Source of the DNA: Pseudomonadota bacterium
Lineage (GTDB): Bacteria > Bdellovibrionota_B > Oligoflexia > Oligoflexales > CAIYRB01
Assembly (NCBI GenBank): GCA_026390435.1
Contig: JAPLFY010000098.1
Coordinates: 1-51,817, forward strand
Direction: 5' to 3'
DNA length: 51,817 nt
Shown piece after piece: positions 6,785-10,736 of this stretch. The notes under the pieces are model-generated. The model saw nothing but the letters and a program-made list of their open reading frames with translations. It was not told where the DNA came from and made no database searches. Each line of letters opens with the position of its first letter. The stretch's first letter is position 1. The position numbers and the translations under genes were made by a program.

Positions 6785-6808
6785 AAGACCAAGTTAAAAA
6801 AATCGTAT

Positions 6809-6823
6809 TGAGAATCATTTTCA
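6809..6823. promoter_or_regulatory. Fur box upstream of the haem-protein gene
   Basis: TGAGAATCATTTTCA matches the 7-1-7 Fur consensus TGATAATnATTATCA at all but two specified positions and is nearly symmetric. It lies 33 bases before the start at 6857, right where a promoter would be, so iron-dependent repression is likely. Fur itself is not in the window. Confidence 0.65.
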
Positions 6824-6856
6824 TTTGCTAGGCTCTTCGAATCAGGAGGACCCCCC

Positions 6857-8101
6857 ATGTTACTGGCTTGCCGTAGCTGTCTATCGCAGATGCTTGTTCA
6901 CCACCGGATTCTCATTAGCTCAGTATTTACCGGAGCTTTCGCCATTTGCGGGGTAGTCCAGGCGGCGCCTGCGAGTGTGGGTCCCGTACGCGCGAAGGAC
7001 CTCGCTGTGGTTTTGCCAGCGGGCGGCAGTCAACGAGTAGCTGCTGAGGACGCCATCTTTCCGGCAGCTTGGTGGGAGCAGATCCATGCGGCCTTTGCTA
7101 AAACCAGCGTTGGCGATGCTGTGGAGCGGGAGAGCCCTCTAGCTAATTGGCGTCTGGTGGCGATGCGCCTTGCACCATGTCAGCCACTGCTGCCTTATCT
7201 CAGTGAACGCAATGACGTGCTATGTCAGCCGGAGCTACGTTTAGTATGGCAACCGGTGGAGCAGCGTTACCGCCGGGACCGTTGGGTATCTTATGCTGAC
7301 GACCGAGCTGTGCATGTCTTGTACCGATTTAATGGCGAGCGTGAGCTAGGAGTAGAGCGCGCAAAGATTTGGCAGGACTTACTTCGCCGCGCGGAATCTT
7401 TGAGTATCACTGAGACCGAAACATATAAAAAGTTGACCCGCACTTTGGTTAAGTCGATCACGGCAGAACTTCAAGATCTGCGCAGCGTGTCACCAGCCAA
7501 AGAATATGACGGAGTGGGTGAGCGACCTGAGTTTGGGAATCAAAGTAGCGCGACTCGTTTTATGGCCAGCCTACACAGCTTTCTTGCGAAACACGCGCGT
7601 CCTGAACTGTTAACGCAGTTGACGGCATTTTCTCTACCAGAGGGTAGGGAGCCACCGATGATTGATGAGTGGGTGTTTGTTGCTTTCGAACCGACGCATT
7701 CAGGCCAAGGCCAAGGCCAAGAAATTCAGCCCCAGTCGTTGACGGTGCGGTCGCGGCGCGATGGCCGAATTCTCGTCGAATACGGAGTTAAGGCGCGTGC
7801 ATCGGTCAGGCGAGATGATGAAGTGTTACAAGACCTGTTTGACCATGCAACTGGCGAAAATAAGTCTGAACTCGACGAAGCTGTGATCTGGACCTTTGGC
7901 GATCGTAAGACCAAAGGTGCGCGAATCGCTGATCCACGGCAGACTCATGTGGCTCACACTAGCTGTGTGTCTTGTCACAAACTAGGCAAGCTTACGTTTG
8001 ATCTACATAACCTGAGTTACTTCGAGGATCGCGGCGTCAGCATATCTCCACGTGTCGAGATGGATGTCAAAAAAGAGCTTGCTTGGATTGCTGCTGATTG
8101 A
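6857..8101 (+). CDS. Secreted single-haem c-type protein, Fur-regulated candidate
   Basis: The 414-residue product starts at ATG 6857 behind a strong AGGAGG. The N-terminus is a signal peptide (hydrophobic core at about residues 18-35, cleavage probably after VQAA). A single haem-attachment motif CVSCH lies at residues 370-374, very near the C-terminus; Met402 is a possible second ligand. The preceding 330 residues are not a cytochrome fold I recognise and contain paired Cys in MRLAPCQPLL and DVLCQPEL. Family knowledge: CxxCH proteins acquire haem in the periplasm via the Ccm system. The Fur box directly upstream suggests the gene is expressed when iron is scarce, which is unusual for a haem protein. 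It could be a sensor or uptake component rather than an electron carrier. The function is unknown. Confidence 0.75.
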   Translation: MLLACRSCLSQMLVHHRILISSVFTGAFAICGVVQAAPASVGPVRAKDLAVVLPAGGSQRVAAEDAIFPAAWWEQIHAAFAKTSVGDAVERESPLANWRLVAMRLAPCQPLLPYLSERNDVLCQPELRLVWQPVEQRYRRDRWVSYADDRAVHVLYRFNGERELGVERAKIWQDLLRRAESLSITETETYKKLTRTLVKSITAELQDLRSVSPAKEYDGVGERPEFGNQSSATRFMASLHSFLAKHARPELLTQLTAFSLPEGREPPMIDEWVFVAFEPTHSGQGQGQEIQPQSLTVRSRRDGRILVEYGVKARASVRRDDEVLQDLFDHATGENKSELDEAVIWTFGDRKTKGARIADPRQTHVAHTSCVSCHKLGKLTFDLHNLSYFEDRGVSISPRVEMDVKKELAWIAAD

Positions 8102-8286: not shown

Positions 8287-9366
8287 ATGTTTCTATCGAT
8301 GCTTCGCTATTTTGGTCTGCTGATATTTACGTTCTGTTTGAGTCAATGTAGTCATGAGGTGAATCGCACAGACCGCAATCGAAAGCCACAACCTGCTCAA
8401 GATGCGGTGAGCAGTAGCGGCGGTCAGTTCCAAGATCAGCAGTCGCCACAGCAGCAGAGTAGTGATCCGAGAGCGCAACAATCAGAGACCCAGCAACAGC
8501 GACCGAAGCTTAAATTCTGGTCCGATCCCAGTTCAGCTGCGGCGCAGGACGCGGCACGCATGCAACCTTCAAACGGTCCTGATGCTCGGCGAATACGCTA
8601 CATCGCAGAGCAAGGTGGCGCTCGTTGGTATGGTGATTGGAGTGGTAATATTACTCGCTCAGTCGCCGCACAAATGCAGAGTGCTACTCAGCAGAATGCA
8701 GCAGCAGTGATGGTTGCCTATAACATTCCTGGCCGCGACTGCGGCAGCTACTCTGCCGGTGGCGCACCTAATGCGTTTGCGTATAGGGCCTGGATTAACG
8801 ACTTCGCGAAAGCTTTAGGTTCGACTACTGCGATTATCATTCTCGAACCAGACGCTCTGGCGCATGACAACTGCTTGACTGATGAGCGTTACGATCTTAT
8901 TCGTTACGCTATCACGACTCTGAAAGCGAAGCCAAATACGCTGGTTTATATTGATGCCGGCCACTCAGCCTGGATCGAATCCGGGAAAATGGCAGAGCGG
9001 TTGCTACGCGCTAGCGTTGAGCTCGCGGACGGCTTTGCCCTCAACGTCTCTAATTATCAACTCTCTAAAAATTTAATCGACTACGGTCAAGCCATTCGCA
9101 GCCGCGGCGTCAGTAAGAACTTTGTCATCGATACTAGTCGCAATGGTAACGGCCCAACGCCGACCAACGAATGGTGTAATCCAGCTGGTCGTGCTTTAGG
9201 ACAACGCCCAGCCTATCCACCGGACTCCCCAGCCATTGAGGGTCTAGACGGATACCTTTGGGTCAAGGTCCCTGGTGAGTCGGACGGCCCTTGCAACGGC
9301 GGCCCTGGTGCCGGTGGATGGTGGCGGCAAAAAGCGCTAGAGCTCGCCAGAAATGCCGGAATTTAA
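8287..9366 (+). CDS. Glycoside hydrolase family 6 cellulase, lipoprotein
   Basis: A 359-residue GH6 enzyme (beta-1,4-glucanase or cellobiohydrolase). The N-terminus is a lipoprotein signal with lipobox LSQC (Cys21), followed by a Gln/Ser-rich linker to about residue 75. The catalytic domain shows the full GH6 series: YNIPGRDCGSYSAGG (Asp151), IILEPDALA (Asp189, the expected proton donor), DAGHSAW, NVSNY, FVIDTSRNGNGP, WCNPAGRALG and LWVKVPGESDG. There is no carbohydrate-binding module. Lipid anchoring implies action at the outer membrane or in the periplasm. GAGGAG lies 5 bases before the ATG. It is followed 56 bases later by a GH5 gene with its own site, consistent with a shared transcript. 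The 185 bases before it are AT-rich and hold no gene. Confidence 0.93.
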   Translation: MFLSMLRYFGLLIFTFCLSQCSHEVNRTDRNRKPQPAQDAVSSSGGQFQDQQSPQQQSSDPRAQQSETQQQRPKLKFWSDPSSAAAQDAARMQPSNGPDARRIRYIAEQGGARWYGDWSGNITRSVAAQMQSATQQNAAAVMVAYNIPGRDCGSYSAGGAPNAFAYRAWINDFAKALGSTTAIIILEPDALAHDNCLTDERYDLIRYAITTLKAKPNTLVYIDAGHSAWIESGKMAERLLRASVELADGFALNVSNYQLSKNLIDYGQAIRSRGVSKNFVIDTSRNGNGPTPTNEWCNPAGRALGQRPAYPPDSPAIEGLDGYLWVKVPGESDGPCNGGPGAGGWWRQKALELARNAGI

Positions 9367-9422
9367 TAAAGCCGTTATTAGTATCTTTGCTACTGCCGAA
9401 GTGATCTAGGAGGTTTTTATTC

Positions 9423-10736
9423 ATGCAAGTTCGTAAATTGCATTTAGCCTGTACGCTTATTTGGCTCATGGTTAGCTCATCATTCAGTGCCCAGGGCAAG
9501 ACTTCATTGACGCGCATTGAAAGGCGAGCAGGCAACGACTTCGTCAAGGTGGATGGCAAGCATTTTGTCGTCAATCAGCAGCGTTATGCCTATGTCGGCA
9601 CGAATCTTTGGTACGGAGCCAATCTTGGTGCAGACGATGCAACGGGACATCGCGCTCGCTTACTTCGTGAACTAGACCGCTTGCAGATCTTAGGGATTAA
9701 AAATCTTCGCGTGATGGCTGGCACCGAAGGGCCCGATGGTGAGCCTTGGCGCATGTTGCCGGCCATGCAGCCACACCAGGGTGAGTATAATCCTGCAGTA
9801 CTTCGTGGTTTAGATTTTCTTCTTAGCGAGATGGCCAAAAGGTCGATGCGGGCAGTTATGTGTTTGAGTAATTATTGGCATTGGTCTGGTGGCTTTGCTC
9901 AATATTTAAGTTGGAATGGTGCTGGTCCCATTCCCTATCCGCCACCGGCTGAGGGCGGCGATTGGGATAGATATAAAGGTTACGTTGAGCAGTTTTATAC
10001 CAACTATCCTGCAAGGGCGGCGCTGGCGAACCACATCCGCTACATGGTCACTAGGACTAATTCGGTTTCTGGAACACCTTATGTGAATGACCCCACGATT
10101 ATGGCCTGGGAATTAGCCAATGAGCCTGATGCATACGCCAATAAACGAGCTTTTATTGATTGGATTGCTGAGTCCTCTCGCCTTATCAAAAGTCTAGATT
10201 CAAACCATCTCGTGATTTCGGGAAGTGAAGGCGAGACCGCAGCAGAAGTGACGGAAATGACCGATGTTGATTACGCAACCACTCATATCTGGGTGCAAAA
10301 CATCGGCTGGTACGATCCAACTAAGCCAGCGACCTACAAGAACGCGTTAAAGCTCGCCACTTCGAGCCTGAAAAAGTCGCAACAGTTGATCGCCAAGATT
10401 GGTAAGCCCCTCGTTCTTGCAGAGTTTGGTATCGCTCGTGACAACGGGCTTTATGCCCCAGGGACTCCCGATAATTATCGGTCACATTTCTTCAATGCCC
10501 TTCTTGGTCAGGTTTATCTGGCGGCAAAAAATAATGATGAGTTAGCCGGTGTAAATTTCTGGGCCTGGGCTGGGGAAGGGCGACCTCGCAATCCCGGCCA
10601 AGCCTGGGCCGTAGGGGATGATTATACGGGCGATCCGCCGCATGAGCTGCAGGGCTGGTATTCGGTGTATGACAAAGATCGTGACGTACAGCGCGTATTG
10701 CGTCGCTATGCGAGGTTAATGGGTGCATTGTACTAG
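9423..10736 (+). CDS. Glycoside hydrolase family 5, mannanase-like
   Basis: The 437-residue protein has a signal peptide (about residues 1-26, ending near SAQG) and one GH5 TIM-barrel domain. The acid/base Glu234 lies in WELANEPD and the nucleophile Glu334 in VLAEFGI. The early segment FVVNQQRYAYVGTNLWYG and the wording around ANEPD resemble the GH5_7 beta-1,4-mannanase subgroup, which I favour over a cellulase; substrate cannot be settled by eye. AGGAGG lies 9 bases before ATG. It follows the GH6 lipoprotein and precedes a Cys-rich lipoprotein and an MFS transporter, so secretion with polysaccharide breakdown outside the cytoplasm is the likely role. It is intact and of usual family length. 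Confidence 0.88.
   Translation: MQVRKLHLACTLIWLMVSSSFSAQGKTSLTRIERRAGNDFVKVDGKHFVVNQQRYAYVGTNLWYGANLGADDATGHRARLLRELDRLQILGIKNLRVMAGTEGPDGEPWRMLPAMQPHQGEYNPAVLRGLDFLLSEMAKRSMRAVMCLSNYWHWSGGFAQYLSWNGAGPIPYPPPAEGGDWDRYKGYVEQFYTNYPARAALANHIRYMVTRTNSVSGTPYVNDPTIMAWELANEPDAYANKRAFIDWIAESSRLIKSLDSNHLVISGSEGETAAEVTEMTDVDYATTHIWVQNIGWYDPTKPATYKNALKLATSSLKKSQQLIAKIGKPLVLAEFGIARDNGLYAPGTPDNYRSHFFNALLGQVYLAAKNNDELAGVNFWAWAGEGRPRNPGQAWAVGDDYTGDPPHELQGWYSVYDKDRDVQRVLRRYARLMGALY

Follow-up and report, generated by a model that had tools for sequence, protein, structure and literature searches.

An undescribed family of predicted exported single-CxxCH proteins, probably under Fur control in one genus

Why should a cell that is short of iron make a protein that itself carries haem? 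The question is raised by a window of 51,817 nucleotides, the whole stretch of DNA analysed here, in which a Fur-like site stands shortly before a gene for a predicted exported protein with one haem c attachment motif. The Fur 15-mer consensus is TGATAATCATTATCA, and the site at 6809-6823 on the + strand, TGAGAATCATTTTCA, is of the 7-1-7 type and matches it at 13 of 15 positions, i.e. with two mismatches. Its end lies 33 bp from the ATG of an open reading frame of 414 residues (6857-8101, + strand), which is preceded by a ribosome-binding site, AGGAGG, at 6844-6849 on the same strand. The near-consensus Fur site that the earlier note placed directly 5' of a secreted single-CxxCH protein is thus where it was said to be. 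A promoter scan called no sigma-70 promoter at the box. Given the base composition of the window, the chance of a 13/15 match is about 1.6e-4 per 100 bp. With up to three mismatches allowed, the window holds three matches against 1.04 expected, and 15 of 100 shuffles reach three as well, so that the window scan is insufficient as sole proof. The decisive support for the putative box is comparative, and comes from orthologues within the genus and from bfd.

The gene is present in all six genomes of the genus, each time with a site of 12-14/15 upstream. When the six upstream regions are aligned, an island, TTGAGAATC[A/G]TT[T/A]TCATTTG, is invariant except at two columns, in surroundings of 61% mean column identity. 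In the window this island is TTGAGAATCATTTTCATTTG (6808-6827, + strand); it comprises the Fur box and its flank, and possibly overlaps the promoter. Given that the proteins of the window's genome (G000) and of G017 are 93% identical, and that the six genomes represent about three lineages, the evidence from conservation is three-fold and not six-fold. The identical 15-mer recurs at one other place in the window's genome (4.28 Mb in 153 contigs, 95% complete), 5' of a bfd-like gene, identified by eye, that adjoins a bacterioferritin gene identified by Pfam. bfd is a classic Fur target. A scan of this genome with at most two mismatches returns nine distinct places against about 6.7 expected from composition, a count which by itself is weak proof. 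Flanks were inspected for seven of the nine: the plausible targets are the single-CxxCH gene, bfd and a gene of the family DUF6607 (Pfam PF20311), and the other four places lie within or 5' of genes with no evident link to iron. Numbers so close to expectation are what a chance match, at a gene outside Fur control, would produce, but the island is kept in 6/6 orthologues and the 15-mer is the same as that of bfd, which makes coincidence very improbable. The earlier proposal that Fur controls the gene gains from the site conserved across the genus.

Does the box accompany iron genes in related genomes? We surveyed 16 regions chosen from motif places in five sister genomes, and in eight of them the motif lies 5' of known iron genes or, in one case, overlaps the start of one. 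These are SufB with an Fe-S assembly gene (G010), an FTR1 permease fused to cytochrome c (G014, and G010, where the motif overlaps the FTR1 start), an IucA/IucC siderophore synthetase (G014 and G015), bfd, seen twice in G014 and identified by eye, and bacterioferritin, bfr (G029). The box is also found 5' of the FTR1-cytochrome c gene in G016, and a 12/15 box 5' of FTR1 in G018. Thus the exported single-CxxCH gene is very likely Fur-repressed, and in the genus it is probably switched together with known iron genes. The earlier note had regarded haem proteins as odd targets for Fur, a view contradicted by the FTR1-cytochrome c fusions of this clade and by EfeB-like PA4371, as described in the available part of PMC3143127, a paper on imelysin. 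FTR1 gave no match in the window's genome or in G017, so that for the gene of the window no partner of the FTR1 kind can be proposed. Membership of an FTR1/Efe iron uptake system was considered for the 414-residue protein and rejected on this ground and because its downstream neighbours are glycosidases: 3' of the gene and on the same strand, 8287-10736 holds a GH6 protein (E 4e-58) and then a GH5-like one, below the cut-off. A separate observation concerns G014:C64, where another protein that looks exported and has one CxxCH (L188, 2024-2878; 284 residues, no Pfam match) starts 75 bp 3' of a 13/15 Fur-like site, TGAGAATCATTCTCA.

Beyond the genus the picture changes. Ten of the 11 homologues examined there have no site of at least 12/15 in the 450 bp upstream, G010 being the sole exception with 13/15, so that Fur control appears limited to the genus and one relative and is not family-wide. 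The expectation that homologues would share the site is borne out in the six genus orthologues and fails in most others. Among 17 paralogues checked, a distant one in G029 has TGATAACCGTTATCA 57 bp upstream, and the best upstream match of the remaining 16 is 11/15. The homologues outside the genus, mostly without a site, also stand in other gene settings, as they might if the protein were an ordinary carrier of respiratory electrons whose gene came under Fur within the genus. Against this reading stand a box common to iron genes and the tie to DUF6607 presented below, and we hold it to be rather unlikely.

What kind of protein is it? No Pfam family matches the 414 residues up to E 1, and NCBIfam gives no match either; by these two collections the family is undescribed, just as the earlier note had supposed. 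Residues 1-38 (6857-6970, + strand, as are all features of the protein given here) resemble a signal peptide, judging from a hydrophobic stretch seen by eye, and are variable in the alignment and modelled with pLDDT below 50. The haem c attachment motif CxxCH, residues 370-374 (7964-7978), is invariant in all 16 rows of the homologue alignment, A1, and in all 20 rows of the wider superfamily alignment, A3. A seventeenth homologue, at G026:C102:41792-42927, was left out of A1; it has an apparent frameshift at the haem end, with its tail in another frame. Invariant residues of A1 include D48, W98, R104, C108, C123, R128, W131, Q132, D149, H153, W272, C370, C373, H374 and H384, and those kept in A3 are D48, R104, C108, R128, Q132, D149, H153, W272 and the CxxCH. 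Cys108 and Cys123 (7178-7225), a pair found in 16/16 rows of A1, may form a disulphide, and Trp272 (7670-7672) belongs to the last core strand. His384 (8006-8008) is a candidate second axial ligand and, if so, would serve the subfamily only, being absent from the residues kept in A3.

A search with the single sequence finds matches in 17 of the 58 genomes of the phylum. With the alignment, matches are found in 21/58, the additional ones being distant paralogues, and a paralogue profile likewise matches in 21/58, where match numbers count pieces and not genes. The family is part of a larger CxxCH superfamily, spread over 21 of the 58 genomes. In a collection of genome contigs scanned with the single protein, only a near-identical MAG locus (L002) was returned, and no relatives were found in plasmids or in viral contigs. 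One superfamily member, at L156 1495-3006 (G029:C65), has two CxxCH motifs and an extra N-terminal part. For the 414-residue protein itself, identity as a di-haem peroxidase (CCP_MauG) is not supported, in view of its one CxxCH and the lack of a Pfam match.

An AF2 model built on A1 (pLDDT 83.5, pTM 0.83) predicts that the N-terminal part and the haem end form one fold, with no separate domain. The earlier note had described an unfamiliar N-terminal part of 330 residues; unfamiliar it is, to Pfam and NCBIfam, but in the predicted model it does not stand apart from the haem end. Foldseek returned nothing at E<=0.001 for this model or for that of a paralogue. In a second structural comparison, the top row for the A1 model is 7ead, a beta-sheet cytochrome c' of Thermus, with Z 4.0, rmsd 4.4, 116 of 135 residues aligned and 17% identity; the next row has Z 3.0, and values of Z below 8 may mean no more than a common arrangement. 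This raises the possibility of a gas-binding cytochrome with a core of the P460/c'-beta type, a periplasmic NO-binding haem under Fur. Fur itself is disabled by iron loss or by NO. The order of parts fits as well, with the strands of the main sheet first and the CxxCH near the C-terminus, as far as the available part of PMC11928373 describes it. Likewise, a profile from which two insertions had been cut out, trimmed with the structural hint in mind, scores 36.5 against seven P460-type proteins of the phylum, compared with 25.0-31.6 in 20 column shuffles. Other results oppose the gas-binding reading. The model of the paralogue (pLDDT 68) does not recover a match of the 7ead type, its rows being other folds with Z up to 3.9. 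The full profile reaches a probability of 25.6 against the same seven proteins over 31 columns, all in the CxxCH region, and profiles without the haem end show no likeness to them. PF16694 matches neither the protein nor, in a profile scan, anything in the window's genome. Compared by sequence with solved structures, A1 gives one unrelated row (E 2.7) and A3 gives cytochrome rows that match at or near the CxxCH; neither finds a P460 chain. We consequently treat the relation to cytochrome P460/c'-beta as a weak hint, a lead and not a membership, and regard a gas-binding role as unlikely, albeit with some chance of being correct.

Are the means of regulation and haem attachment at hand? The window's genome encodes two proteins of the Fur family. 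One, of 159 residues, comes nearest to the Fur model, with 128 bits against a cut-off of 146, and the other adjoins a ZigA-like zinc chaperone. A CcsB-like cytochrome c assembly protein is also encoded, below the cut-off of its model.

The neighbourhood of the gene in sister genomes points to a possible partner. In G014 and G016 the gene is flanked by DUF6607 in divergent orientation, and Fur-like sites, in two groups, occupy the intergenic region that the two genes share. DUF6607 lies elsewhere in the window's genome, and some 250 bp upstream of it are 14/15 sites that overlap each other. All six genomes of the genus possess DUF6607, with the G017 copy truncated where its contig ends; the copies of G015 and G018 have a 12/15 site near the start, inside the longest possible reading frame. 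By a Pfam scan (12/58 genomes) together with a search of the genus, DUF6607 is found in 14 genomes, and it is commoner where the gene is present, in 10 of 17 genomes versus 4 of 41 without it (Fisher p 2e-4, relatedness not corrected) or, counted by genus, in 5/8 versus 2/22 (p 0.007, likewise uncorrected). In G032, G046, G050, G051 and G031 the 90 bp or so 5' of DUF6607 contain Fur-like sites of 12-14/15; a site is found upstream of the DUF6607 region in G026 and one about 1 kb away in G030, and the G010 locus has no Fur-like site. A second DUF6607 region of G026 (L216, G026:C34) carries 15/15 and 14/15 Fur-like sites, each overlapped by a further one. A secreted-looking protein of 315-331 residues with no Pfam match adjoins DUF6607 in the window's genome (L050 8061-9056) and in G017 (L113 7317-8264). 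A literature search found no paper on DUF6607.

Two plasmid records, both from Bacteroidota, contain DUF6607 (L202, L203). In each, DUF6607 and the gene for a TonB-dependent receptor diverge and HmuY lies nearby, which links DUF6607 to haem or iron uptake in that phylum. These surroundings, together with a hemL-like gene seen by eye close to the locus of both G014 and G016, would suit a protein that captures or senses haem for a haem uptake system of the outer membrane; haem sensing or capture is a role that the earlier note had found attractive. The neighbour DUF6607 is the sole pointer to such a role, the CxxCH would hold the protein's own haem covalently, and we know of no haemophore that binds its own haem in this way. 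Moreover, the window's genome has one TonB receptor above the cut-off, and no Fur-like site of at least 12/15 lies within 3.5 kb of it. Haem capture or sensing is, in our judgement, quite improbable.

The explanation that we prefer is that the product of the gene is an exported c-type cytochrome with one haem, repressed by Fur in iron plenty, which performs a redox step in iron acquisition; we consider the chances of this to be about even, and the protein likely to be a tool of the iron-starvation response. As the conserved site suggests, Fur would occupy the promoter while iron is plentiful, and upon iron loss it would be released and the gene expressed. The product would then be exported and take up haem c, and the periplasmic protein may give or take an electron during iron acquisition, for example by reducing ferric or siderophore iron or by acting with DUF6607 in the redox handling of iron or haem. 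We prefer this explanation because the same 15-mer lies 5' of bfd, the island is kept in 6/6 orthologues, the box is shared with iron genes in sister genomes, DUF6607 is tied to the gene, a Fur-like and a CcsB-like protein are encoded and the CxxCH is invariant. What the letters themselves support is a conserved putative Fur box, its occurrence at known iron genes and the invariant CxxCH. Counted against the preferred explanation are the ten siteless homologues outside the genus, the four of seven inspected places without an iron link, the failure to find FTR1 in the window's genome, and the GH6 and GH5-like genes downstream. A broader version, which we regard as doubtful, is an iron-starvation module in which a large, unnamed CxxCH superfamily, with this member and the G029 paralogue under Fur, would join DUF6607 in the periplasmic processing of haem or ferric complexes, by means of a P460/c'-beta-like core. 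If it were true, a haem c enzyme would serve the winning of iron and not respiration. The probable Fur targets of a little-studied phylum thereby gain an undescribed haem c family, one that is tied to a Pfam family without a known function, DUF6607, that has Fur-like sites in several families of that phylum. Both become testable candidates for iron or haem acquisition genes.

How does the protein compare with known systems? With cytochrome P460/c'-beta (PF16694) it shares, in the predicted model, the placing of the CxxCH behind a sheet and close to the C-terminus, and it has the weak structural match to 7ead; unlike that protein of 135 residues, ours has 414 with large insertions, no PF16694 match and, away from the haem end, no support from sequence. 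In P. aeruginosa, a Fur-regulated operon includes the EfeB-like protein PA4371, which, like our protein, would be a Fur-controlled haem protein tied to iron uptake, but EfeB is likely a di-haem peroxidase, according to the available part of PMC3143127, whereas the 414-residue protein has one CxxCH. Within the clade, the FTR1-cytochrome c fusion (Pfam FTR1 and Cytochrom_C) likewise places haem c in the iron regulon, with the motif at or 5' of its gene in G014, G016 and G010; it differs in being a membrane permease with another cytochrome domain, and the search of the window's genome did not find it. Bfd, which functions in the release of iron from storage, is an unrelated protein, and yet its gene carries the identical Fur 15-mer upstream.
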